Shown here piece after piece: positions 3,891 to 45,353 of a stretch of DNA of 64,000 nucleotides. Origin of the DNA: Ilumatobacteraceae bacterium (lineage in GTDB: Bacteria > Actinomycetota > Acidimicrobiia > Acidimicrobiales > Ilumatobacteraceae); contig JAWPMO010000001.1 in the NCBI GenBank assembly GCA_033344875.1, forward strand, positions 2,505,595-2,569,594. The letters run 5' to 3'. Within the stretch, counting starts at the first letter, position 1. Every line of letters starts with the position of its first letter. A program made the translations under genes and the position numbers. Below the pieces are notes generated by a model. It was given only the letters and a program-made list of their open reading frames with translations, did not search any database and was not told where the DNA came from.

Positions 3891-4502
3891 TCAGTCGCCC
3901 GAGGGGCAAAGCAGCCCGTCGAGGTAGAACCCGGCCACCTGTTCGCCGAGCTGACGAGCCGAGACCGGTCCACCGGGGATGAACCAGCGGACCGCTGCCA
4001 CGAGCGAACCCATCATGATCCGGTAGGCCAGCTGCGGGTCGAGGTCGGCCCGGAACGTGCCGTCGGCCGAGCCACGCGCGAGCGTCTCGACCCACATCCG
4101 CTCGATCGCCTTCGTGCGCTCCTCGACGAACGCCAAGCGGGGCAGGCGCGAGATGTACGCCAGGTCGTTGTTGAGAACCTGGATCTCGTCGGACAACGAC
4201 TCGAGGAAGCTGTAGCCGGTCGCGACCAGCGAACGGATCGTCTCGTCGGGCGACGACGCCGACTTCATCACGTCGACGTAGCCCTGCTCCATCTCGTCGA
4301 AGATCCCGCGGAGCAGGTCTTCGAGGATCGCGTCCTTCGATTCGAAGTGGTGATAGAGGCTGCCGGAGAGGATGCCCGCCTCTTCCCCGATGTCGCGTAC
4401 GGTCGCATTCGCGAAGCCCTTCTGGGCGAAGACCCGCGCCGCCACCTGCAGCAACTCGTCGCGTCGGGACAACGGCCGATCATCGTTCTGCAACTTCGTC
4501 AT
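3891..4502 (-). CDS. TetR family regulator, KstR2-like
   Basis: A 203-residue TetR repressor. The DNA-binding domain occupies residues 14-60: RRDELLQVAARVFAQKGF, then ATVRDIGEEAGILSGSLYHHF, which closely resembles mycobacterial KstR2 as I remember it. The ligand domain ends with VRWFIPGGPVSARQLGEQV, also KstR2-like. KstR2 binds an acyl-CoA ligand and controls CoA-linked catabolism. The ATG at 4502 has GGGAGA upstream. It lies inside the catabolic operon, after a 64-bp gap that contains a small inverted repeat (AGCCTC/GAGGCT). No other regulator is encoded in the island, so it is the best candidate to bind the seven 18-bp operators. That assignment is inference. Confidence 0.88.
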   Translation of the reverse strand: MTKLQNDDRPLSRRDELLQVAARVFAQKGFANATVRDIGEEAGILSGSLYHHFESKDAILEDLLRGIFDEMEQGYVDVMKSASSPDETIRSLVATGYSFLESLSDEIQVLNNDLAYISRLPRLAFVEERTKAIERMWVETLARGSADGTFRADLDPQLAYRIMMGSLVAAVRWFIPGGPVSARQLGEQVAGFYLDGLLCPSGD

Positions 4503-13447: not shown

Positions 13448-14253
13448 CAGTTCGTGATGCCGAGTGATTCGATCGACGCCGCCAACTCGGCTGCGAAACC
13501 CTCGTGCTCGTCGGCCACCATATGCCCGGCCGGGTCGATGATCTCGATCCGGGCGTGCGGGAACACCTGCTGCCAGTCCGCGGCCAGCGAGACCGGCACG
13601 AGACCGTCCTGGGCACCGAACCACAGCCGCATCGGCACGTCGGCCAGGCGATAGCCGCGCCCGGCGACGTTGGTGTCGGGGATCGGGAACAGGTACCGGC
13701 TGGTCGAACCGAGCGTCTGGACCCGGCGGATCGACGCCAACCCCTTCTCGTACGCGTCGGCCGGGGGCGGGAAGTGGCGGGCGACCAGTTCACCCTGGGG
13801 GTCGGTGTACAGGTGGGGGTTGAGGTCGCGCGGCAGCAGGGCGAACATGTCGACGCCGGTGTCGTCGGCCCGGAACATCCCGAACGGCGCTGCGAGCGCC
13901 AACGACCGGACGGCGCCGGGCTGCTGGATCGCCAACTCGACGGCCAGGGTGGCACCGAAGCCGTGGCCGGCGACCGACACCCGGCCGAGATCCAGGGACT
14001 CGAGCGCCCACCAGACGACCGAGGCGAGCTCGCCGATCGAGTCGAAACGGTCGCCGCCATCGGCGACGCCCCATCCCGGCAGGTGGACTTCGACCACGTC
14101 GAACCGCTCACCGAGCGCGTCTCGGCCCGGCAGCCCGTCGAGGGCACCGAACTGACCGTGCAGCCAGACGAGCGTCGGTCCGGAGGCGAGCCCGGAGCGG
14201 TCGACGACGATCTGGGTGCCGTCGATCGGGGTCTGGAGTGTGGTTCGGGTCAT
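13447..14253 (-). CDS. Alpha/beta hydrolase fold protein with Gly at the nucleophile position
   Basis: A 268-residue alpha/beta hydrolase. The oxyanion block LVWLHGQFGALDGL is near residue 30, the nucleophile elbow near residue 105, an acid-loop region LWFGAQDGLVP, and the catalytic His in DPAGHMVADEHEGF. The elbow reads VAGHGFGATLA where the canonical form is G-H-S-x-G, so the Ser nucleophile is replaced by Gly (codon GGC, checked in the bases). His and probable Asp remain. It may be an inactive or cofactor-independent variant, for example a C-C hydrolase-like or dioxygenase-like protein, or a substrate chaperone. It follows the LLM gene by a 4-bp overlap. Confidence 0.85.
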   Translation of the reverse strand: MTRTTLQTPIDGTQIVVDRSGLASGPTLVWLHGQFGALDGLPGRDALGERFDVVEVHLPGWGVADGGDRFDSIGELASVVWWALESLDLGRVSVAGHGFGATLAVELAIQQPGAVRSLALAAPFGMFRADDTGVDMFALLPRDLNPHLYTDPQGELVARHFPPPADAYEKGLASIRRVQTLGSTSRYLFPIPDTNVAGRGYRLADVPMRLWFGAQDGLVPVSLAADWQQVFPHARIEIIDPAGHMVADEHEGFAAELAASIESLGITN

Positions 14254-15515
14254 CGTTGTGCCTCCCTGGCGACGGGCTGGACATGGGTCTCCTGGAAGCC
14301 CTCGATCGGCTTCGGCCACCACTGGTGTTCGTGCTCGTCGAAGGTGCCGCTCAGTGCCGGCATGACCTTCTCGGCGAACATGTCGATGTTGTGCTTGGCG
14401 AGGTCCTTCGGCATCGAGCCGATGTGCATGAGCATCACCCAGTTGCCGATCGACGAACGCTTTGCAGCTGCTTCGAGCTTCTCGCGGACCGTGTCGGGGC
14501 TGCCGGCGATCACGATGCCCTGCTCGACGAAGTCGTCCCAGCCGTACTTCTGAGCGGCAGCGAACGAGTCGGGGCGGCTCGACGAGGTCGCACCCTTGGC
14601 GGGCAGCACCTCCTGGAGCGAACGGATCGTCTTGTAGCCGGGGGCCTCGGTGAAGCCCGGGTAGATGTGCGTGCACCGTTGGTAGAAGTACTGCACGTGC
14701 GGCTCGTAGAGCCGGCGAGCCTCTTCGTCGGTGTCGGCCACCATGACGAGCTGCACCATGCCGGTGCGGTACGGGTTCCGGTCGCGGCCGGCGAGCTCGA
14801 CACGCTCCCAGTACTTCTCGAACAGGTCGGCGGCGTAGTCGGCCCCGAAGTACGACAGCAGGAAGAACGGGGCGTCGAGTTCGACGGCGAAGTCCATCGT
14901 CTCGACCGACCCGCTGCCCGGGATCCAGATCGGCGGGTGCGGCTGCTGGAGCGGCTTGGGCCAGGGGTTGACGTAGCGCAGCTTGCTGAACCGGCCGTTG
15001 TGCGAGAAGACCTCGTCGGTGGTCCACGCCTTGAGGATCAGTTCGAAACCTTCACGGTGCTGCTCGCGCATCGTCGCCGGCTTGACCCCGTAGGCGAAGT
15101 TCGAGTCCTGGCTGCTGCCGAGCGGGAATCCGGTGATCAGACGGCCTCCCGACATCACGTCGAGCATCGCCAGTTCTTCGGCGATGCGGATCGGCGGATT
15201 GTAGAGCGGTACTGCGTCGCCCATCACGAGCAGCTTGCTGTCGGTGTCGGTGATCCGGCGCGCCAGCGCGGCACCCATCATGTTGGGGCTCGACATCAGG
15301 CCGTACGCGTTGTTGTGGTGCTCGTTGACGCCGATCGCGTCGAAGCCCTTGACCGCGGCGTGCTCGAGTTCGTCGAGGTAGTCGTTGTAGAGCTGGTGGA
15401 TGCGCGGGACGTCCTGCACCTCGGGCGGGATGTCGACCCACACGCTGCGGTACCGATCACCGAAGTCCTCGGGCAGGCCGTCGAACGGCATCAAATGGAA
15501 ATAGGTGAACTTCAC
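14250..15515 (-). CDS. LLM class flavin-dependent monooxygenase, first gene of a 12-gene operon
   Basis: A 421-residue bacterial-luciferase-like flavoprotein, longer than the 300-residue F420 group and resembling alkanal monooxygenase/type II Baeyer-Villiger relatives. Blocks include FTYFHLMPFDGLPEDF, GFDAIGVNEHHNNAYGL, SGGRLITGFPLGSSQDSNFAYG and KPLQQPHPPIWIPGSGS. I chose the GTG at 15515 because GAGGAAG precedes it by about 6 nt and the protein motif begins there; upstream in-frame sequence runs into the operator. It would insert oxygen with reduced flavin. A promoter (TTGACG-18 bp-TACTGT) and operator lie directly upstream. The next gene, a hydrolase-fold protein, overlaps it by 4 bp. Confidence 0.85.
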   Translation of the reverse strand: MKFTYFHLMPFDGLPEDFGDRYRSVWVDIPPEVQDVPRIHQLYNDYLDELEHAAVKGFDAIGVNEHHNNAYGLMSSPNMMGAALARRITDTDSKLLVMGDAVPLYNPPIRIAEELAMLDVMSGGRLITGFPLGSSQDSNFAYGVKPATMREQHREGFELILKAWTTDEVFSHNGRFSKLRYVNPWPKPLQQPHPPIWIPGSGSVETMDFAVELDAPFFLLSYFGADYAADLFEKYWERVELAGRDRNPYRTGMVQLVMVADTDEEARRLYEPHVQYFYQRCTHIYPGFTEAPGYKTIRSLQEVLPAKGATSSSRPDSFAAAQKYGWDDFVEQGIVIAGSPDTVREKLEAAAKRSSIGNWVMLMHIGSMPKDLAKHNIDMFAEKVMPALSGTFDEHEHQWWPKPIEGFQETHVQPVAREAQR

Positions 15516-15564
15516 CGGTGCTTCCTCCGAATCGCGAGTTGGTTCGCCGGTCGATCCGGGACCA

Positions 15565-15582
15565 ACCAAGCAGTTGCTCGGT
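15565..15582. promoter_or_regulatory. 18-bp regulon operator, copy 2
   Basis: ACCAAGCAGTTGCTCGGT. It sits immediately downstream of the -10 of the promoter for the 12-gene operon, over the expected transcription start, a position suited to repression. Confidence 0.85.
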
Positions 15583-16611: not shown

Positions 16612-16629
16612 ACCTAGCACTTGCTTGTT
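16612..16629. promoter_or_regulatory. 18-bp regulon operator, copy 3
   Basis: ACCTAGCACTTGCTTGTT, between the divergent SDR and CoA-transferase genes. TTGCTT (16621-16626) inside it is positioned as a -35, 17 bp before TAACGT. Confidence 0.82.
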
Positions 16630-19471: not shown

Positions 19472-19944
19472 ACACACGCGACCAGCTGTCCGACGACGAT
19501 CGACGATCGATCGAACGCCTCCAGTACCGGTACTGCGATCTGGTCGATCGGGCGCGGGTCGACGAGCTGGTCGACCTGTTCGCCGATGACGCCGAGATCG
19601 ACTACGGCCACGGCCGGAGCATCTCCGGCGCCGACTCGCTCGCGACGTTCTTCCACGACCGGTTCCGCGCCTACAGCGGCACGAGCCACCACCTGTCGAA
19701 CGTGATGATCGACGTCGACGAGGACGGCGCGGTCAACGTGCAGTCGTCGATCTACGCATGGCACCAGTTCCATGACGGGTCTCAGGTCGAGGTCTGGGGT
19801 CGGTACCTCGATGTCGTCGTCCGGTGTGACGACGGGTGGCGTTTCGGCACGCGGGCGATCCGTGCCGCCGGATGGCGCGGCTTCACGGTCCCCGAGGGCG
19901 AACAGGGCCCGTTCCAGATGATCGATCGCGAGGTCGTCAGGTGA
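19468..19944 (+). CDS. SnoaL-like/NTF2-fold protein
   Basis: A 158-residue cone-shaped NTF2-like protein. The pattern IERLQYRYCDLVDRARVDELVDLFADDAEIDYG is the standard helix-plus-strand opening, followed by HHLSNVMIDVDEDGAVNVQSS and WGRYLDVVVRCDDGWRF. Homologues include scytalone dehydratase-like and SnoaL-like cyclases and isomerases; no specific activity can be assigned. GTG start with GTGA overlaps at both ends of the gene, inside the CoA-transferase operon. Confidence 0.85.
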   Translation: MNTRDQLSDDDRRSIERLQYRYCDLVDRARVDELVDLFADDAEIDYGHGRSISGADSLATFFHDRFRAYSGTSHHLSNVMIDVDEDGAVNVQSSIYAWHQFHDGSQVEVWGRYLDVVVRCDDGWRFGTRAIRAAGWRGFTVPEGEQGPFQMIDREVVR

Positions 19945-20564
19945 CCGAGCTCCTCGACCTCGACGAGATCATGGCGACGGCGCGGGCGACGCGCAGCTTC
20001 CTCGACCGCCCCGTCGACCGCGCCCTCCTCACCGAGATCGTCGAAGCGGCGACCTGGGCACCGAGCCCGCGCAACACGCAACCGTGGGAGTTCGTCGTCG
20101 TCGACGACCCGGAGCCGCGTGCGCGCATCGGCGCCCTGCTCGAACCGCGCGCGGCCGAGGTCGACGCCGCGGCCGAACGTCTCGACACCGAGGCGCAGCG
20201 CAAGATGTACCGCAGCGCCGCCGCGCTGATCCGGTCGATCGGAACTGCGCCGGCCGTCGTGTTCGTGTGTGGCCGTGCCACCGATTACGGCCGCGATTTC
20301 GACGCGGAGGACATGGTGCTGAGCGCGGTGTACACCGCGTCACAGAACCTGTTGCTCGCGGCGAGGGCCCGCGGGCTGGGCGCTGCATTCACGACCCTGC
20401 ACATCCACGCGGACGCGGCGATCCGCGACGTGCTGGCACTCCCCGACGGTGTATCGGTCGGCGTCACCATCCCGGTCGGGTGGCCGACCACGCCGTTCAA
20501 GCCGCTCCGTCGGCGTCCCGTCGCCGACGTCCTGCACTGGAACCACATCGAGGAGACACCATGA
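19941..20564 (+). CDS. Nitroreductase family protein
   Basis: A 207-residue FMN-dependent nitroreductase-fold protein. ARATRSFLDRPVDRALL is followed by APSPRNTQPWEFVVVDDP, the family's S-x-x-N-x-Q-P-W FMN motif, and later SQNLLLAARARGLGAAFTT and PVGWPTTPFKPLRRRPV. Such enzymes reduce nitro groups, quinones or enoyl compounds, or dehydrogenate. The GTG start overlaps the SnoaL stop; the stop overlaps the amidohydrolase ATG. It is another flavin-dependent member of the regulon. Confidence 0.9.
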   Translation: MTELLDLDEIMATARATRSFLDRPVDRALLTEIVEAATWAPSPRNTQPWEFVVVDDPEPRARIGALLEPRAAEVDAAAERLDTEAQRKMYRSAAALIRSIGTAPAVVFVCGRATDYGRDFDAEDMVLSAVYTASQNLLLAARARGLGAAFTTLHIHADAAIRDVLALPDGVSVGVTIPVGWPTTPFKPLRRRPVADVLHWNHIEETP

Positions 20565-27608: not shown

Positions 27609-27626
27609 ACCAAGCGTTTGCTTCAA
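27609..27626. promoter_or_regulatory. 18-bp regulon operator, copy 4
   Basis: ACCAAGCGTTTGCTTCAA, the least symmetrical copy, located between the E2 stop (27627) and the LLM start (27512). It is placed to control the 27512-22532 operon. Confidence 0.75.
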
Positions 27627-28880
27627 TCATCGGCGCGGGTCCCCCAGCGCGGTCCGAACGGCGTCGAGCGCCTTCGCCGCGGTCACGCCGTCGATCAGAC
27701 GATGGTCGGCGGCGAGCGTCAACCACATGGTGGGGCGTGCGACCACCTGGCCGTCGACGACGACCGCGCGCTCCTTGATGGCACCGGCGAACACCATCGC
27801 GGTCTGCCCCGGCGGGATGATCGGCGTGCCGATCTCGACGCCGTGCGCCCCGAGGCTCGACAGGGTGACGCCGGCACCGGTGACCTCGTCGATCGTGAGG
27901 CGGCGGGTGCGGGCGCGCTCGGCGAGGTCTTGGAGCCGGGTGTGGATCTCGCCCACGTCGAGCGAACCGACGTCGCGGAGCACCGGCGCGACCAGACCGA
28001 ACTCGGTGTCGGTCGCGACCGCCACCGACACGTACTCGCGGTGGCGGATACCTGCGCCGACGATCTCGGCGTGCAGGACCGGGAGCTCGCTGCAGGCGGC
28101 GGCGAGCGCCTCGATCAGGTAGGCGGTGATCGTCGGCCGACCCTCGGTTACCGCCCGTCGACGGTCGAGGAGCGCGCCGGCGTCGATGCACACCGACTCG
28201 ACGAAGTGCGGGATCGTGGTCCAGCTCTTCTCCATGGAGAAGAACATCGCCCGGCGGTGCCCGGTCAACGCCTCGACGCCGTCATCGGCTGCATCGTTCT
28301 GTTCGTCGTGTTCGTCGGTCGCCGCGGCAGGCATGGAGTCGGGCACCGGAGGTGGCGGCGGCGGGAGTGCTGCACCGCTCGTGTCGGCCGCCGCCAGGTG
28401 CCGTTCGACGTCGGCGGACGTGATCGAGCCGCGGTCACCGGTGCCGGTGACCGACGCCAGGTCGATGCCGTGCTCGCGAGCCAGTGCTCGTGCTCGCGGC
28501 ATCGCGCGCGGACCTCGTCCCGACGTGACCGGACCGGTGTGCTCGCCGGACGGAGCGGCAGGCGTGGACGGCGTGTCGGCGACCGCCGAGCCACCTGCGA
28601 GGAACCGATCGACGTCGTCGTCGGACGGTGCCGACTCGTCGGGGGCGGTGATCACGGCGAGCGTCTCACCGACCGGGACCTCGTCGCCTTCTCCGGCGAC
28701 CCATCGAGCGAGCCGGCCGGCACTCTTGGCCTCGACGTCGATCTCGACCTTCTCGGTCTCGACGACGTACAGCAGGTCGCCCGTCGCGAACGAGTCGCCC
28801 ACCTCGACCGCGAGCCGCACCACCACGCCGGCGTCCATCGTCTGGCCCAGCCGGGGCATCGAGAGCACCTGCATCGTCAT
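27627..28880 (-). CDS. 2-oxoacid dehydrogenase E2 (dihydrolipoamide acyltransferase)
   Basis: A 417-residue E2 core protein. One lipoyl domain (residues 1-80) carries the lipoyl Lys in VETEKVEID (Lys44). A Pro/Ala/Ser linker leads to the peripheral-subunit-binding domain (about 125-163, PRARALAREHGIDLASVTGTG). The catalytic domain ends with ADHRLIDGVTAAKALD, the H-x-x-x-D-G active-site motif. It transfers the acyl group to CoA. It follows E1beta by 57 bp and is the last gene of the 40533 operon. No E3 (dihydrolipoyl dehydrogenase) is in the window, so E3 is presumably shared from elsewhere. Acetoin-type and branched-chain-type complexes both fit. Confidence 0.9.
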   Translation of the reverse strand: MTMQVLSMPRLGQTMDAGVVVRLAVEVGDSFATGDLLYVVETEKVEIDVEAKSAGRLARWVAGEGDEVPVGETLAVITAPDESAPSDDDVDRFLAGGSAVADTPSTPAAPSGEHTGPVTSGRGPRAMPRARALAREHGIDLASVTGTGDRGSITSADVERHLAAADTSGAALPPPPPPVPDSMPAAATDEHDEQNDAADDGVEALTGHRRAMFFSMEKSWTTIPHFVESVCIDAGALLDRRRAVTEGRPTITAYLIEALAAACSELPVLHAEIVGAGIRHREYVSVAVATDTEFGLVAPVLRDVGSLDVGEIHTRLQDLAERARTRRLTIDEVTGAGVTLSSLGAHGVEIGTPIIPPGQTAMVFAGAIKERAVVVDGQVVARPTMWLTLAADHRLIDGVTAAKALDAVRTALGDPRR

Positions 28881-28937
28881 CGGGTCATCTCCTCGTCGTT
28901 CGGGGTCGTCGTCATGGTTCGTGTGCGGTCGGGAGCG

Positions 28938-29912
28938 TCAGCGCATGACCTTGCGGACCGCATCGGCGATCTCGGTCACGCCGGGCAGCATCAGCCGCTC
29001 GAGGTGCACGCTCTGCGGGAAGTACGTGTCCGGGGTGGTGACCCGGAGGACCGGCGCCTCGAGCACGTCGATCATCCGGTCGGCGACGACGGCGGCCACC
29101 TCGGCACCGGGGCCGCCGGCGCCCGGCGCCTCGTGCACGAGCACCAACCGGCCGGTCTTCTCGACCGATGCCAGGATCGTGTCGATGTCGAGCGGCCGGA
29201 TGCCGCGCGGGTCGATGACCTCGACGTCGATCCCTTCGTCGGCGAGGGCGTCGGCTGCCTGGAGCGATCGTGGGACCAGGTTGCCCCACGCCACGATCGT
29301 CACGTCGTCCCCCCGCCGCGGGGTGGCGGCAACCCCGATCGGCACCAGGTGCTCGCCGTCGGGCACCGGCCCACGCTTGGAGTACAGCGCCTTGTGCTCG
29401 AGGAACAGCACCGGGTTGTCGTCGCGGATCGCCGACTTCAGGAGCCCCTTCGCGTCGGCCGGGTTGGTCGGCATCAGCACGTACATGCCGAAGGCGCTCT
29501 GGAAGAGACCGCCGGGCGATTGCGAGTGCTCGGCACCGGCACCGCCCTTGGCGCCCTCGGGGGCCCGCACGACCATCGGCACATTCAGACGCCCGCCGTG
29601 CATGAACTTCCACTTGGCGGCCTTGTTGTACATCTCGTCCATGGCGATACCGAGGAAGTCGGAGTACTGGAGTTCGGCGACCGGCCGGAGACCGGTGATC
29701 GCCGCGCCGACCGCGGCGCCGACGATCAACGTCTCCGACAGTGGGGTGTCGAACACGCGCCGGTCGCCGAACGTCTCGTGCAACCCTTTGGTCACGCCGA
29801 ACACGCCGCCGAACGCCGCGACGTCCTCGCCCATCACGAAGACCGACGAGTCACGTTCCATCTCCTCGACCAACGCCTCGTTGATCGCCTGGGTGAAGGT
29901 CAGCTCTCTCAT
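28938..29912 (-). CDS. 2-oxoacid/acetoin dehydrogenase E1 beta subunit
   Basis: A 324-residue E1 beta subunit. TFTQAINEALVEEMERD, VFVMGEDVAAFGGVFGVTKGL (with the TPP-activating Glu), FDTPLSETLIVGAAVGAAITG and VHEAPGAGGPGAEVAA are typical. Together with E1 alpha it binds TPP and decarboxylates a 2-oxoacid or cleaves an acetoin-like ketol, passing the acyl group to E2. Its ATG overlaps the E1 alpha stop by 4 bp. Confidence 0.92.
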   Translation of the reverse strand: MRELTFTQAINEALVEEMERDSSVFVMGEDVAAFGGVFGVTKGLHETFGDRRVFDTPLSETLIVGAAVGAAITGLRPVAELQYSDFLGIAMDEMYNKAAKWKFMHGGRLNVPMVVRAPEGAKGGAGAEHSQSPGGLFQSAFGMYVLMPTNPADAKGLLKSAIRDDNPVLFLEHKALYSKRGPVPDGEHLVPIGVAATPRRGDDVTIVAWGNLVPRSLQAADALADEGIDVEVIDPRGIRPLDIDTILASVEKTGRLVLVHEAPGAGGPGAEVAAVVADRMIDVLEAPVLRVTTPDTYFPQSVHLERLMLPGVTEIADAVRKVMR

Positions 29913-30868
29913 GCCAGGATCCCTTCGAAGAGGCGGCTGCGGTCGGGCACCGGGGCAGCGCGCGCGACGTCGACGGCCCGCTCCATCTCGCGGTCGGCCT
30001 CGGCGGCGAGCGCGGCGAGGCTCGCGTCGGTCGCGAGACCGGCCTCGATCAGTCGGTCCGCGAGGAGCGTGATCGGATCGCGCTCCAGCGCAGCCGTGTC
30101 GGCGTCACCGCGGTAGCTCTGCGGGTCGCCCTCGAAGTGCCCGCGGAATCGCACGGTCTTGGCCTCGATGAACGTCGGGCCCTCGCCCTCGCGGGCGCGA
30201 CGTACCGCGGTGTCGACCGCCTCGTACACCGCGATCGCGTCCTGTCCGTCGACGATCACCCCCGGCATGCCGTAGCCGGCCGCCCGCGTCGCGAGGTCGG
30301 CGACCGGCGTCGACGCCGACTGCGGCACCGACACGGCGTAGCCGTTGTTCTCGCACAGCCAGACGACCGGGAGCTTCCAGGCGCCGGCGGCGTTCGCCGA
30401 CTCGTGGAACGTGCCGCGATTGGCGGTGCCGTCGCCGAACATGCACAGCACGACCTGGCCCGAGTCGCGATACTTGGCCGACAGGGCCGCTCCCGCAGCG
30501 AGCGGGAAGGTGCCGCCGACCGTGCCGCTCTGACCGAGCACGCCGACCGACGGGTCGACCACGTGGACGATGCCGGCACCGAGCCCTCGGGTCGAACCCG
30601 CGGTGTTGGCGAGCACGTCGCCGAACAGTTCGACGGGATCGATGCCCTTGGCCAGCAACTGGCCGACGCCGCGATGGACGTAGAACATGTAGTCGGAACG
30701 ACGGAGCGGAGCGATCGAGCCGACCGCGACCCCCTCCTGGCCGCGCGCCGAGTGGTACAGCACGAGCGCCTCGCCGCCGTCGATCAGACGGAGGATCCAT
30801 TGCTCGGCTGCCTGGCCGCGCACCATCTCGCGGTACATGGACAGGCCGACGTCGTCGATGGTCGCCAT
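29909..30868 (-). CDS. 2-oxoacid/acetoin dehydrogenase E1 alpha subunit
   Basis: A 319-residue TPP-binding E1 alpha subunit. The TPP/Mg motif is MFGDGTANRGTFHESANAAG, then LPVVWLCENNGYAVS. RGLGAGIVHVVD lies near the active site. Length and the absence of long N-terminal extensions favour the acetoin dehydrogenase (AcoA-like) or bacterial PDH/BCDH heterotetramer class. TGATG overlap with the SDR upstream. Position in the operon suggests that a ketone or 2-oxoacid made by the SDR/alcohol dehydrogenase is cleaved here. Confidence 0.92.
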   Translation of the reverse strand: MATIDDVGLSMYREMVRGQAAEQWILRLIDGGEALVLYHSARGQEGVAVGSIAPLRRSDYMFYVHRGVGQLLAKGIDPVELFGDVLANTAGSTRGLGAGIVHVVDPSVGVLGQSGTVGGTFPLAAGAALSAKYRDSGQVVLCMFGDGTANRGTFHESANAAGAWKLPVVWLCENNGYAVSVPQSASTPVADLATRAAGYGMPGVIVDGQDAIAVYEAVDTAVRRAREGEGPTFIEAKTVRFRGHFEGDPQSYRGDADTAALERDPITLLADRLIEAGLATDASLAALAAEADREMERAVDVARAAPVPDRSRLFEGILA

Positions 30869-40574: not shown

Positions 40575-40592
40575 ACCAAGCGGTTGCTTAGT
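40575..40592. promoter_or_regulatory. 18-bp regulon operator, copy 5
   Basis: ACCAAGCGGTTGCTTAGT. It overlaps the last bases of the -10 and the likely start site of the livH promoter. Confidence 0.85.
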
Positions 40593-40728: not shown

Positions 40729-42072
40729 TCACGGCGTCCAGATGGTCTGGCTGCCGTCGGCGTTCCACTGCATGAACGTGGTCGGGCTGGCGAGCGACGC
40801 CTGTCCGTCCTCGAAGACGATCTGGCCGTACGGCGTGGTCATCTCCGTGATGCCGGCCATCGCCTGGGCGACGGCTTCGGAGTCGCCGGTGCCGGCGAGG
40901 CGCAGGCCTTCGGCGGCGACGAGGACAGCGGTGTAACCCTGGGCGGCGAACACGTCGGGCACTTCGCCGTGCTCGGCCTCGTAGGCCTCGGTGAAAGCGA
41001 CGGCTTCCGGCGTGGTCATCTGCGGGGTGAAGGCGATCGGGAAGATGATCCCGTCGAGCGTGTCGCCACCGATCTCGTAGTTGGCGGCATTGCTGATGCC
41101 GTAGGTCGTCACGAGACGACCTTCGTATCCGCGGTCACGCAGCGCCTTGGCGAGCAGCGTGGCTTCCTGGCCGAGCATCGACAGGGCGACGACATCGGGG
41201 TTCTCGTCGATGATCTGGGTCGCCGGGCCGCTGAAGTCGGTGTCACCGGTTGCGGTGTCGACGGTCTCGAGGACCTCGATGCCCGCTCCGGAGAACGCGT
41301 CGGCCCAGATCACACCTTCGTTGGTCATGCCGTCGTTGTCGGCGGTGACGACGATCACGCCGGTCGACATGCTGCCGTCCGAGTTCAGTCCGTCGATCAT
41401 CTCCTTGTAGGCCGGGTCACCCAGCAGCAGGACCGGCCGGTACATGTACGGCGGCTCGTTGAGCCCTGGCAGGATCGCCGACGTCACGACGCCGGCGGTC
41501 TGCGCGTTGGCCAGGATCGGCTTGACCGAACCGGCGACGCTCGACAGTGCGCAGCAGAGCACCGCCGACACGTCGTCACTGAGGAAGCCCTCGACGATGC
41601 CGATCGCCTTCGCGGCGTCGCCTCCGGCGTCTTCCTCGTCCATCCGCAGGGTGACGCCCTCGCCGAGGAGGCCCTCCTCGTTGATGATCTTGACCGCGAG
41701 GTTGGCGCCGTTGGCCAGCGGCACGCCGGCGAACGCCGCCGGGCCGGAGGTCAGGGCCTCGAAGCCGATGGTGTACTCACCGGCCGGCAGACCCGAAGCT
41801 TCTTCGGTGGGCTCCTCGGTCGTGGCGGGCTCGTCGGACATGTCGTCCGACGCGTCATCGGACATGTCGTCCGACGCGTCATCGGACATGTCATCCGACG
41901 CCTCGTCGGTCACGTCGTCGGCGGTCGAATCGGCGGTGCTTTCGTCTTCGGTCGGCGTGTCACCGGCATCGCCGGCGTCGTCGTCGTCGCCACCGCAGGC
42001 GGCGAGTACGAGTACTGCGGCCAGCGTGGCGCCGACGATGCGCCGGCGTGCTGTGGGTCGAGATGCGGTCAT
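40729..42072 (-). CDS. ABC transporter substrate-binding lipoprotein (LivJ/K-like)
   Basis: A 447-residue periplasmic-binding-protein type I component of the adjacent Liv system. The signal peptide ends with the lipobox LVLAAC, so it is probably lipid-anchored to the membrane. Residues 25-95 form an Asp/Ser/Thr-rich linker containing three copies of an eight-residue unit (ASDDMSDD). The ligand domain begins at EYTIGFEALTSGPAAFAGVPLANGANLAV and contains the PF13458-type core. The ATG at 42072 follows AGGGGGAA. It is monocistronic, with its own promoter, operator copy 6 and terminator, allowing higher expression than the permease operon. Confidence 0.9.
   Translation of the reverse strand: MTASRPTARRRIVGATLAAVLVLAACGGDDDDAGDAGDTPTEDESTADSTADDVTDEASDDMSDDASDDMSDDASDDMSDEPATTEEPTEEASGLPAGEYTIGFEALTSGPAAFAGVPLANGANLAVKIINEEGLLGEGVTLRMDEEDAGGDAAKAIGIVEGFLSDDVSAVLCCALSSVAGSVKPILANAQTAGVVTSAILPGLNEPPYMYRPVLLLGDPAYKEMIDGLNSDGSMSTGVIVVTADNDGMTNEGVIWADAFSGAGIEVLETVDTATGDTDFSGPATQIIDENPDVVALSMLGQEATLLAKALRDRGYEGRLVTTYGISNAANYEIGGDTLDGIIFPIAFTPQMTTPEAVAFTEAYEAEHGEVPDVFAAQGYTAVLVAAEGLRLAGTGDSEAVAQAMAGITEMTTPYGQIVFEDGQASLASPTTFMQWNADGSQTIWTP
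41837..41908. repeat. Three 24-bp tandem repeats encoding an acidic linker
   Basis: Two identical 24-bp units (41837-41860, 41861-41884) and a third with three changes (41885-41908). They encode the Asp/Ser/Met-rich spacer between lipid anchor and binding domain. Confidence 0.9.
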
Positions 42073-42100
42073 TGGTGTTCCCCCTGGGAGTGTTGAGCTG

Positions 42101-42118
42101 AACAAGCAAGTGCTTGTT
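42101..42118. promoter_or_regulatory. 18-bp regulon operator, copy 6
   Basis: AACAAGCAAGTGCTTGTT, the most symmetrical copy (8-bp perfect arms around AG). It overlaps the -10 and start region of the binding-protein promoter. Confidence 0.88.
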
Positions 42119-42143
42119 TAGTCCATCGCTTCCGAGAACACAA
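42115..42143 (-). promoter_or_regulatory. Promoter of the substrate-binding protein gene (TTGTGT-17-TAAACA)
   Basis: On the minus strand TTGTGT (42143-42138) and TAAACA (42120-42115) have a 17-bp spacer. The -10 overlaps operator copy 6. Confidence 0.55.
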
Positions 42144-42165
42144 GGTTTCGATTCGGTTCGGGCGC

Positions 42166-42193
42166 TTGACAGCCGCTCGATCTTCGCTATTCT
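42166..42193 (+). promoter_or_regulatory. Promoter of the riboflavin kinase gene (TTGACA-16-TATTCT)
   Basis: TTGACA (42166-42171), a 16-bp spacer and TATTCT (42188-42193), with operator copy 7 starting 8 bp downstream. A near-consensus promoter. Confidence 0.75.
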
Positions 42194-42200
42194 TTCGTCT

Positions 42201-42218
42201 ACCAAGCGCTTGCTTGTT
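42201..42218. promoter_or_regulatory. 18-bp regulon operator, copy 7
   Basis: ACCAAGCGCTTGCTTGTT, over the expected transcription start of the riboflavin kinase gene. Confidence 0.88.
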
Positions 42219-42242
42219 TCTGCGGTGCGAACGGAGGACGCC

Positions 42243-42662
42243 ATGAGCAACCGAGATTCCCTGACCTGTGCGACCGAGACCGTCGTGCTGAATGCCACCG
42301 AATTGTGTGGCACCGTCGAGCTGGGCGACCAGCGCGGTCGGACGATCGGATTCCCCACCGCCAACCTCCCCCTCGCCGCGACGTCGGCGCTGGCCAACGG
42401 CGTCTATGCCGGGCGGGTGACGCTCAGCGACGGGCGCCAGTTCGTCGCTGCCGTCAATGTCGGCCACCGTCCCACGATCTACACCGATGGTGTTCGCCTC
42501 GTCGAGGCCCATCTGATCGGCTTCGACGGCGACCTGTACGGCAGCACGATCGTGGTGCGTCTCACGCGACGTCTCCGGGACGAGCAGCGTTTCGGGTCGC
42601 TCGAGGAGTTGCAGGCCCAGATCGCGCTCGACACCGAGCGTGCCATCGAAGCCGCCGGCTGA
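42243..42662 (+). CDS. Stand-alone riboflavin kinase domain protein
   Basis: A 139-residue protein equal to the C-terminal flavokinase domain of bacterial RibF, without the N-terminal FAD synthetase domain. Signature GRTIGFPTANLPL (P-T-A-N nucleotide/Mg motif) is at about residue 35, with NGVYAGRVTL, AAVNVGHRPTI, VEAHLIGFDGDLYGSTIVV and the catalytic-Glu region just before it. It should phosphorylate riboflavin to FMN. GGAGG precedes the ATG. It has its own strong promoter with operator copy 7, so it is expressed with the island's flavin enzymes. The stop codon lies within a large hairpin shared with the convergent CNNM gene. Confidence 0.86.
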   Translation: MSNRDSLTCATETVVLNATELCGTVELGDQRGRTIGFPTANLPLAATSALANGVYAGRVTLSDGRQFVAAVNVGHRPTIYTDGVRLVEAHLIGFDGDLYGSTIVVRLTRRLRDEQRFGSLEELQAQIALDTERAIEAAG

Positions 42663-42700
42663 CCGCGCCGTCGACCCCCCGGTCGACGCGATCAGCCGGC
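42654..42700. terminator. Bidirectional hairpin terminator
   Basis: Nested inverted repeats: outer arms GCCGGCTGA/TCAGCCGGC (42654-42662, 42692-42700) and inner arms GTCGACC/GGTCGAC around CCCC (42670-42687). It separates the convergent riboflavin kinase and CNNM genes. There is no T-run. Confidence 0.6.
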
Positions 42701-42723
42701 GGCTCCGGTCGGCGGCCCGTGGT

Positions 42724-44064
42724 TCAGTGCGGCGCTCGGTCGCCCACCGGGGAGAGGTCGGTGTCGGCCTCCGGATCCTGCGGGCGCACGCGGATGCGGG
42801 TGATCTTGCGGCCGCGCACCTCTTCGACGGTGAGATCATGCCCCTGCACCGTCGCCGACGTTCCCACCGTGGGGAGGACGGCGGTGGCCGCGAGCACGAC
42901 GCCGGCGATCGTCGTGACGTCCGGGTGCTCGATCACGATGCCGTGGTCGTCGGCGAGTTCGTGCAGGGTGACCTCACCGCTCAGGCTGAGCGACCCGTCG
43001 TCGTGTCGCACCGGCCCGCGCTCGTCGGCGTGGGTCTCCTGATCCATCACGTCGGCGATGATGTCGTCCATCGTGACGATGCCGAGCGTCGCCCCGTGCT
43101 CGTCGACGACGAGCGCCGCGTGCGTCTGCTCGCGCCGGAAGCGTTCGAGCACGTCCTCGGCGGTGGCGGTGCCTGGCACCGTGGGGATCCGACGCATCAG
43201 TTCTCGCAGGGCGAGGCTGCCGCCGCGCTGCTGTGCCCGGATGAAGTCCTTGATGTGGAGCACGCCGACGACGGCGTCGAGCGACCCGTCGATCACCGGG
43301 TAGCGGCTCCGCTCCGACGACGTGATCCGATCGAACACCTCGTCGGCGGGGGTGGTGGTGTCGAGCGTCTCGACACGGCTGCGCGGCACCATCAGTTCTT
43401 CGGCGGTTCGTTCGTCGAGCTCGAACACGTTGCGGATCAGGTCGCGCTGCATCATCCCGAGCTGTCCGCTGCTGGCGGTCTCATCGGTGACGATCGCCAG
43501 TTCGGCGCTCGTGTAGAGCGCCAACCGCTGATCGGGTTCGGGAATGCGCAGCAGCCGCATCAGACCGAGCGCGGCCGCGTTGAGCACCTTGACCGCCGGC
43601 CGGAACACGAGGCCGAACACCCGCATCACCGGGTTGATGCGGAGACTCACCGTTTCCGGAGCCTGCAGCGCGAGCGCCTTCGGGATCATCTCGCCGAACA
43701 CGACGTGCATGTAGGTGATGCCACTCAGGGCGATGATGAACCCGACCGTGTGGGCGGCGGCGTGGGACAGGCCCCAGTCCTCGAACGGTCCGTAGAGCCA
43801 ACCCGCCACCGCCGGTTCGCCGTACATGCCGAGCCCGATGCTGGCGAGCGTGATCCCGAGCTGCGCGATCGCGATGTAGCCGTCCTTGCCGGTGGGGTCG
43901 TCGAACACGCCGAGCAGCGACTGTGCCGGCCGGCTGCCGTCGTCGGCGAGGGTCTGCAGTCGGCTCCGGCGGGCGCCGACCAGGGCGAACTCGGCGGCCA
44001 CGAACGCGCCGTTGGCCACCACGAGCACGACGATCACGAGGATCGGGATCACGACGTCGGACAT
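42724..44064 (-). CDS. CNNM/CorC-HlyC family membrane protein (DUF21-CBS)
   Basis: A 446-residue hemolysin-C/CorC-type protein, probably involved in Mg2+/Co2+ export or homeostasis. The DUF21 membrane domain (residues 1-190) begins VANGAFVAAEFALVGARRSRL and contains VFGEMIPKALALQAPE. Two CBS domains follow (MVPRSRVETLDTTTPADEVF, ALVVDEHGATLGIVTMDDIIADV), then the CorC_HlyC C-terminal domain. The ATG at 44064 gives a TGATG junction with the paralogue upstream; a GTG at 44067 is the alternative. Confidence 0.9.
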   Translation of the reverse strand: MSDVVIPILVIVVLVVANGAFVAAEFALVGARRSRLQTLADDGSRPAQSLLGVFDDPTGKDGYIAIAQLGITLASIGLGMYGEPAVAGWLYGPFEDWGLSHAAAHTVGFIIALSGITYMHVVFGEMIPKALALQAPETVSLRINPVMRVFGLVFRPAVKVLNAAALGLMRLLRIPEPDQRLALYTSAELAIVTDETASSGQLGMMQRDLIRNVFELDERTAEELMVPRSRVETLDTTTPADEVFDRITSSERSRYPVIDGSLDAVVGVLHIKDFIRAQQRGGSLALRELMRRIPTVPGTATAEDVLERFRREQTHAALVVDEHGATLGIVTMDDIIADVMDQETHADERGPVRHDDGSLSLSGEVTLHELADDHGIVIEHPDVTTIAGVVLAATAVLPTVGTSATVQGHDLTVEEVRGRKITRIRVRPQDPEADTDLSPVGDRAPH

Positions 44065-45353
44065 CACCGCGCATCACCCGGTTCGTCGAAGCTCGCCCTG
44101 ACGACTCCTCGACCGTTCATGGTGTCGACCCGGATGACGGGGCCGCCGGGGATCGTGATCGTGTCGCCGGGGAGGGGTGTGCGTCCGAGGTGGTGCCAGA
44201 CGAGCCCCCCGACGGTGTCGACGACGGCATCGCCGAAGTCGAGGTCGAATCGGTCGTGCAGCGTCGCGAGCAGCACGTCGCCGCGCACCGAGACGCGTCC
44301 GTCGCCGACGACGATCGGGTCCTCCTCGAGGTCGAACTCGTCCTGGATCTCACCGAAGACTTCCTCGATCGCATCTTCGAGCGTGACGAGGCCGGCGACG
44401 TCGCCGTACTCGTTGACGACGAGCGCGCAGTGTTGCGACTCGTCGCTCAGTGTGCGCCAGAGTCTCGGAACGGTCACGACCTCGGCGACCGCGACGACCG
44501 GGCGGGTGACGTCGCCGACCGAACCGTCGGGGTGCGACTGGGCGTGCACGAAGATGTCGCGGAGGTGGGCGATCCCGACGACGTCACCGTCGGCACCGGT
44601 GACCGGGAACCTGGTGTGCGGCCCGACCGCGAGTTGCGTCAGCGCGTCGGCGACACCGGTCGCTTCCGGCACGGTCACGAGTCGCGGGCGTGGGGTCATG
44701 ATCTCGCGGACTCGGCGAGCATCGACGTTGAGGATCCCGGCGAGCATGTCGCGCTCGGAGGCGTCGATCAGGCCGCCCTCGGCGCTGGCCCGGTAGAGGC
44801 CCGCGAGCTCTTCGGGTGAGTGCACGTGCGCGTGGCTGTGGTCGATCTGCAGCTTCCACAGCTTCATCAACTTGGTCGCCGACCCGTTGAACAGACCGAC
44901 GAGGGGGCTGAACACCCACTGGCTGACCCGCATCGGAGCGAGCGTGGCCGTCGCGAGTCGTTCTGGATAGCGCAGCGCGACGGTCTTGGGGAGCAGCTCA
45001 CCGATCACGACCTGCATCGCGGTGACGAACACCAGCACGATGAACACCGCGGCGCCACGTCCTCCGACGCTGCCCAGCGACGGTTCCAGCACAGGGGTCA
45101 GTTGCGCCTGGCCGTAGGCACCGGCGACCAGGCTGCTGAGCGTGATGCCGATCTGGCACGCGGCGACGTAACCATCGAGCCGCTTGGGGTCGGCCATGAT
45201 TGCCAGGAGACGTTTCGCCGAGCCGCTGCCCGCCGCTGCGTCTTGCTGCACACGCGAACGCCGTGAGCCGACCGTGGCGAACTCGGCCGCCACATACAGC
45301 GCGTTGAAGGCGACCATCACCGTGATCACCAGGAGCGGGACCACGACGTTCAC
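44064..45353 (-). CDS. CNNM/CorC-HlyC family membrane protein (DUF21-CBS)
   Basis: A 429-residue paralogue of the next gene, with the same order: DUF21 (NALYVAAEFATVGSRRSRVQQ, VVIGELLPKTVALRYPE), CBS pair (IMTPRPRLVTVPEATGVADAL, ALVVNEYGDVAGLVTLEDAIEEVFGEI) and C-terminal CorC_HlyC domain. Adjacent DUF21-CBS pairs are common in actinobacteria and may form heterodimers. A His-rich segment (DHSHAHVHS) lies between membrane domain and CBS. GTG start. It is not linked to the catabolic regulon. Confidence 0.9.
   Translation of the reverse strand: MNVVVPLLVITVMVAFNALYVAAEFATVGSRRSRVQQDAAAGSGSAKRLLAIMADPKRLDGYVAACQIGITLSSLVAGAYGQAQLTPVLEPSLGSVGGRGAAVFIVLVFVTAMQVVIGELLPKTVALRYPERLATATLAPMRVSQWVFSPLVGLFNGSATKLMKLWKLQIDHSHAHVHSPEELAGLYRASAEGGLIDASERDMLAGILNVDARRVREIMTPRPRLVTVPEATGVADALTQLAVGPHTRFPVTGADGDVVGIAHLRDIFVHAQSHPDGSVGDVTRPVVAVAEVVTVPRLWRTLSDESQHCALVVNEYGDVAGLVTLEDAIEEVFGEIQDEFDLEEDPIVVGDGRVSVRGDVLLATLHDRFDLDFGDAVVDTVGGLVWHHLGRTPLPGDTITIPGGPVIRVDTMNGRGVVRASFDEPGDAR

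Follow-up and report, generated by a model that had tools for sequence, protein, structure and literature searches.

A stand-alone riboflavin kinase gene with a predicted KstR2-type operator in a catabolic cluster of an Ilumatobacteraceae bacterium

The stretch of DNA analysed here (the window, 64,000 nucleotides, C1:2505595-2569594 in a genome complete as a single contig of 4,968,626 bases) contains, at 42243-42662 on the + strand, a gene that probably encodes a working, kinase-only riboflavin kinase (flavokinase) switched on with a catabolic regulon. This regulon comprises genes for ABC uptake, acyl-CoA ligases, three acyl-CoA dehydrogenases, five LLM enzymes, thiolases, an E1/E2 2-oxoacid dehydrogenase set and a nitroreductase, and the sequence features described below suggest that the cell makes a spare FMN-forming kinase only while the degradation cluster is in use. 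Bacterial flavin cofactor levels are usually thought to be set globally, via RibF and FMN riboswitches. Here, the repressor that governs a degradation pathway seems to control an FMN kinase of its own, which would link cofactor supply to the flux of one pathway. The system is an easy case to test, consisting as it does of a small protein, a repressor and a single 14-bp site.

The kinase gene and the housekeeping RibF

The open reading frame starts with an ATG at 42243, preceded 5 nt upstream by a GGAGG, and stops at 42662. The original prediction had the gene itself right but began it at 42166, which is the first base of the promoter. The G+C content at the three codon positions (0.69/0.49/0.84) is similar to that of other genes. 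The genes to the right, CNNM/CorC-like (the CorC-like gene occupies 42724-44067), are convergent, so that the kinase gene is monocistronic by layout.

The 139-residue protein consists of the kinase domain alone, as had been proposed. The Pfam profile PF01687 covers residues 19-136 (profile positions 5-122 of 124) with 124.4 bits against a cut-off of 19.6, and it was the only domain found by Pfam, with no FAD-synthetase half; the RibF models of NCBIfam matched by their kinase ends alone, all under cut-off. The PTxN motif and the catalytic glutamate are kept (T39, N41 and E88, with GFPTAN at 36-41). E88 aligned opposite E268 of C. ammoniagenes, a residue which we take to be catalytic, and an E268D entry is also listed among the structure matches. 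An AlphaFold2 model, computed from an alignment of the kinase with the kinase stretches alone of 33 of the at least 80 loci of the named scan, gave a pLDDT of 84.1 and a pTM of 0.79, and superposed with TM scores of 0.76 on the isolated RFK module 5a89 and 0.75 on human RFK 1nb0. The protein thus shares domain, motifs and fold with the RFK module of bifunctional RibF/FAD synthetase, whereas the adenylyltransferase half is missing.

A separate full-length bifunctional RibF, whose presence the original prediction had asked to confirm, is encoded at C1:171906-172793, with PF06574 at 171906-172370, PF01687 at 172422-172793, the full bifunctional layout and intact motifs. PF01687 was found at two places in the genome, in the window kinase and in this RibF, and PF06574 once, in the same frame as the second PF01687. 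The enzyme of the window is therefore a second kinase. In a class-wide draw of 296 genomes, limited to a completeness of 85 or more, 273 genomes gave one flavokinase match, 19 gave none and 4 gave more than one, G563 and G610 being carriers of second kinases; among 120 relatives, 7 had more than one match.

Promoter, operators and the candidate repressor

The kinase gene has a near-consensus promoter of its own, in agreement with the original prediction. This sigma-70-type element, TTGACA-16-TATTCT at 42166-42193 on the + strand, scores 10/12; the scanned region 41900-42800 gave no other promoter-like match (mean for shuffles 0.0, sd 0.1). It is followed by a predicted operator at 42201-42218, of which 42201-42214 is an exact copy of the KstR2 operator AnCAAGnnCTTGnT, beginning 7 bp past the −10 box and ending 28 bp before the ATG. 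Considering its position just past the −10 box, a bound repressor would block initiation. A second predicted operator, at 42101-42118, faces the divergent gene of a substrate-binding protein (SBP) of a branched-chain-type ABC transporter (40729-42072, − strand, ATG at 42072; PF13458, 160.6 bits, scanned as 40729-42105), and its bases 42105-42118 are the other exact 14-mer. When matches were listed by mismatch number, these promoter regions of the SBP gene and of the kinase were the only two places in the 4.97-Mb genome with an exact AnCAAGnnCTTGnT. By eye, the SBP gene also contains direct repeats of about 24 bp at 41828-41893, which code for an acidic linker near the N terminus.

Five further KstR2-type sites, each with one mismatch, were located at 2510-2523, at 15565-15578 before the LLM gene 14250-15569, at 16612-16625 between divergent genes, at 27609-27622 before an LLM/ACAD/ligase run and at 40575-40588 before permease genes. 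Together with 42101/42105 and 42201 they make seven, so that the kinase site is indeed operator copy 7 as it had been numbered. Allowing at most one mismatch, the published 14-mer gave 8 matches in the window against 0.28 expected; seven of them are the operators, and the eighth, at 43241 inside the CorC-like gene, was not counted as one. Genome-wide, the same search gave 93 places against 214 in a reversed control, that is, no enrichment, and the support for the five weaker sites therefore lies in their clustering and conservation alone. A looser palindrome, CAAGCNNNNGCTTG, has five exact places in the genome, two of them in the window. An 18-mer built from the window's own sites was dropped as evidence, being circular: at most two mismatches gave six places in the genome, all in the cluster, and three mismatches gave one further place in the cluster and three elsewhere.

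The cluster encodes a TetR repressor at 3891-4502 on the − strand (TetR_N, 62 bits), for which the best PDB match is KstR2 of M. tuberculosis (4w97, 156 bits), the two proteins being 40% identical across 186 aligned residues and 65% identical in the first 46 of them. A search of the genome at E ≤ 1e-10 gave no second close homologue, the match ranked next having 55 bits and 29% identity, and the counterpart in the same-genus genome G001 (66%) is likewise the sole close match there. That the TetR of the cluster is a KstR2 relative is new in this analysis. The positions matching R162 and W166 of KstR2, which we take to be the HIP-CoA contacts, are M and V. The families CoA_trans (PF01144), ECH (PF00378) and NMO (PF03060), presumably markers of the HIP pathway, had no match among 40 window proteins; the cluster looks unlike the known HIP pathway and reads as acyl-CoA chemistry. 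A well-kept DNA-reading region is thus found together with changed contacts and a cluster of non-HIP appearance, and the protein is perhaps a KstR2 with a new inducer.

Compared with the KstR2 regulon of mycobacteria and rhodococci, the cluster has the same 14-bp operator and a similar DNA-reading region in its repressor, whereas the HIP families and both contact residues differ as described. In the main text of PMC3068626 (Kendall et al. 2010), the KstR2 operator lies 22-39 bp before gene starts, with one case at 82 bp, and the 28 and 32 bp of the two exact window sites fall within these distances. The words riboflavin, flavin, FMN and flavokinase are absent from that main text.

Conservation and stand-alone kinases in other genomes

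The window was compared with 80 kb (C1:4206001-4286000) of G001. The two stretches are colinear over the block bounded by the left operator and the kinase, save for a class II aldolase gene, whose G001 counterpart lies at the left end. All tested window proteins, orf2519 and those from the TetR through the SBP, have a counterpart in G001 (51-88% identity). The kinase itself is about 56-57% identical to the G001 kinase, and only three of the compared shared proteins (E2, one SnoaL and orf2519) are less similar. It is also the last gene common to both stretches: neither the six tested genes to its right nor the MFS gene left of the block had a match in the 80 kb of G001.

Six of the seven sites have G001 counterparts in matching places that differ from the 14-mer by one base at most, at 4235205, 4250336, 4260447 (exact), 4273464, 4275627 (one mismatch, transporter side) and 4275703 (exact, kinase side), in the order of their window counterparts; for the site at 16612, the similar G001 sequence at 4251384 has more than one mismatch and fits the looser pattern only. 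G001 has extra sites at 4237694, by the moved aldolase gene, and at 4239342, between the TetR and the next gene; by the window TetR there is none with at most one mismatch. The G001 kinase locus (L038) carries 3 KstR2-type sites against 0.08 expected, with the exact one before the kinase, and no promoter-like match. An alignment of the intergenic DNA with G001 was set aside, the aligner having paired the wrong operators. As a search at 1e-30 detected the SBP, taken as a marker of the cluster, in just 2 of 120 relatives, own genome included, conservation rests on two species. For the LLM protein of 14250-15569, a search at 1e-80 gave 6 genomes out of 396, again counting the own genome.

Stand-alone kinases were also found further away. 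G102 and G650 represent two genera from a different family in the order, with a stated completeness of 95% for each. Both contain PF06574 once, and the rest of that RibF protein is without GFPTAN and the catalytic motif; the sole flavokinase match is an open frame of 138 or 135 amino acids. The RibF proteins (L157 in G102, L161 in G650) keep an intact FAD-synthetase half beside a degenerate kinase half. Since the kinase half is degenerate, the stand-alone kinases of these genomes probably work, and the two cases can be read as natural complementation. Genomes with a split RibF of this kind would let stand-alone riboflavin kinases of bacteria be tested by natural complementation.

In G083, the stand-alone kinase gene (L045) has a GTG start overlapping the stop of an amidohydrolase gene, with an acyl-CoA dehydrogenase on the same contig, and G020 holds a further copy (L042). 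An uncultured Kocuria bin encodes a stand-alone flavokinase at 7872-8426 of L085, with a flavin-reductase/SnoaL protein, a BCCT transporter, aldehyde dehydrogenases and a GntR gene as neighbours; by its gene content this setting appears independent and catabolic-looking. Among the at least 80 loci listed in the named scan, it is the one stand-alone case; of the others listed, 76 have the N-terminal RibF motif in full, 2 have it in a variant form and 1 is cut by a contig end. In four stand-alone loci (L042, L045, L049 and L085), no KstR2-type site lies next to the kinase, although L045 has one 9 kb off.

A second RibF-like protein of about 300 amino acids (RibF2) is present in five relatives (L039, L040, L041, L043 and L048). 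Its FAD-synthetase half scores 28-41 bits compared with 152-166 in true RibF, and in L048 the PTxN motif of the kinase is lost too. The window kinase is more similar to the kinase half of the G016 RibF2 (61%) than to the G001 kinase. Trees were computed on 125 columns, first with 72 rows (the window kinase, 33 loci and 38 of the at least 80 named-scan loci) and then with 70 rows, without the long rows L048_short and L067_RibF. The kinases of G001, G083, G102, G020 and Kocuria grouped with supports of 99/95 in the first tree and 99/94 in the second. The window kinase fell outside this stand-alone clade in the 72-row tree and joined it in the 70-row tree at 88/79, not starred. Constrained trees gave a p-AU of 0.279 for the window kinase with the G001 kinase alone and of 0.658 for the window kinase with four RibF2 rows. 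Given this placement, the argument from G102 and G650 carries over to the window kinase with caution.

Taken further, these relationships would allow a dedicated flavin-provisioning slot, in which the two best operators serve uptake and FMN synthesis and catabolic flux sets the supply. Kinase domains of different origin would have come to occupy this slot on more than one occasion, a RibF2-like one here and one from the stand-alone clade in the sister species. We offer this as a tentative idea, with the odds against it.

The same relationships bear on the strongest competing explanation, that a kinase domain split from a RibF paralogue came by chance to lie beside the transporter promoter and is co-regulated without being needed by the pathway. 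The RibF2 paralogues with weak FAD-synthetase halves could supply such a domain, the G016 RibF2 kinase half is closer than the G001 kinase (61% against 57%), most of the cluster has diverged more slowly than this gene, and most of the LLM enzymes look F420-dependent. However, two species have the kinase in the same slot, each time with an exact operator of its own, its catalytic residues are intact, and the genes to its right are not shared with G001 (0 of 6 tested). We therefore consider a chance passenger unlikely and prefer the reading of a kinase retained under the control of the regulon.

Flavin demand, proposed mechanism and known systems

According to the preferred reading, the KstR2-like TetR would, without substrate, occupy both the operator at 42201 and the one facing it at 42105. 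An intermediate of the pathway, probably an acyl-CoA, would bind the TetR, whose release would free the uptake genes, the catabolic genes and the kinase together. The kinase would then convert riboflavin and ATP to FMN, so that FMN, and via RibF also FAD, could rise as the flavin enzymes of the regulon form; its co-induction would simply add phosphorylating capacity during flavoprotein synthesis. We infer the catalytic activity, repressor binding, type of inducer and physiological purpose of this model.

The count of nine flavin-type enzymes given in the original prediction (five LLM, three acyl-CoA dehydrogenases and one nitroreductase) was reproduced. Nevertheless, four of the five LLM proteins score above the cut-offs of F420 subfamilies of NCBIfam (TIGR03619 three times, TIGR03617 once), and CofD (F420) is encoded in the genome. 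FMN does not feed F420, and acyl-CoA dehydrogenases use FAD, still needing the other half of RibF. The likely direct FMN users, as far as family membership tells, are the fifth LLM and the nitroreductase. The former (14250-15569, − strand; PF00296, 139.8 bits) is above no NCBIfam subfamily cut-off, its best model being the Atu2307/SP_0267 monooxygenase family with 83 bits against a cut-off of 462; the latter (19836-20564, + strand; PF00881, 92.3 bits) has BluB and nitroreductases among its PDB relatives. As four of the five LLM look F420-dependent, the FMN demand is smaller than first held. Of the claim that FMN supply is tied to the regulon, the second flavokinase, its own promoter, the shared operator and its retention in one same-genus genome stand, while the flavin demand is weakened. 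The regulon also encodes E1-alpha, E1-beta and E2 of a 2-oxoacid dehydrogenase complex (27627-30868); no E3 was found among the 40 window proteins scanned.

The F420 signature could instead point to a kinase acting on something other than riboflavin, such as an F420 precursor or a pathway substrate that resembles flavin or carries a ribityl group. The intergenic region shared by the kinase and the uptake gene, the several F420-dependent-looking enzymes and the CofD would fit such a target. The motifs and fold of the protein are, however, those of riboflavin kinases, stand-alone kinases are the only matches in G102 and G650, and the cluster otherwise looks like acyl-CoA chemistry, which makes another substrate very improbable. 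Riboflavin catabolism as the pathway of the cluster found no support either: two of the five LLM proteins were searched against the PDB, with no riboflavin lyase at E ≤ 1e-5.

That the gene is a constantly expressed backup of the housekeeping kinase has an equally slim chance. In G102 and G650 the stand-alone kinase is the only recognisable one, but here RibF is complete with intact motifs, and an exact KstR2-type operator, of which the genome has two, lies at the kinase promoter.

The closest known parallel to a regulon-controlled second kinase is RibR of B. subtilis, whose gene reportedly lies within a sulfur-compound operon together with transporter genes and LLM monooxygenases. Both RibR and the window kinase are monofunctional kinases that exist alongside a bifunctional enzyme. 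In passages of PMC9863419, RibR is a monofunctional riboflavin kinase of about 230 amino acids beside the bifunctional RibC/RibF, which affects the rib operon, binds rib mRNA and has a C-terminal half (121-230) without known relatives; its regulatory role as well as its kinase function is also mentioned in part of PMC12542839. By this precedent the window protein could be a regulator of flavin supply more than an enzyme, which we regard as scarcely credible: the C-terminal domain of about 110 amino acids is missing, as the protein and its kinase fold end at 139, and the FMN riboswitch RF00050 was found in neither the genome of the window (G000) nor G001, by a search positive in 7 of 14 control genomes. 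An Rfam search of the 64,000-nt window likewise gave no match, and riboswitch feedback on flavin synthesis is not expected in G000 and G001. The window kinase further differs from RibR in its setting, an acyl-CoA catabolic cluster with a TetR of KstR2 type.

A second parallel is the rca cluster, whose RcaB is said to be a riboflavin kinase. As described in part of PMC12746152, this cluster of Microbacterium maritypicum G10 has five catabolic genes, including one for an FMN-dependent monooxygenase; riboflavin itself is the substrate there, whereas the window LLM proteins searched (2 of 5, PDB) have no riboflavin lyase match. In C. scindens, a gene neighbourhood with the RibF homologue finB is induced on riboflavin, according to part of PMC12934955. 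The titles and abstract openings of the open-licence papers searched contained no riboflavin kinase under a KstR2-type repressor. The originally claimed unusual nature of this cofactor management is therefore tempered by RibR and by what is said of RcaB.
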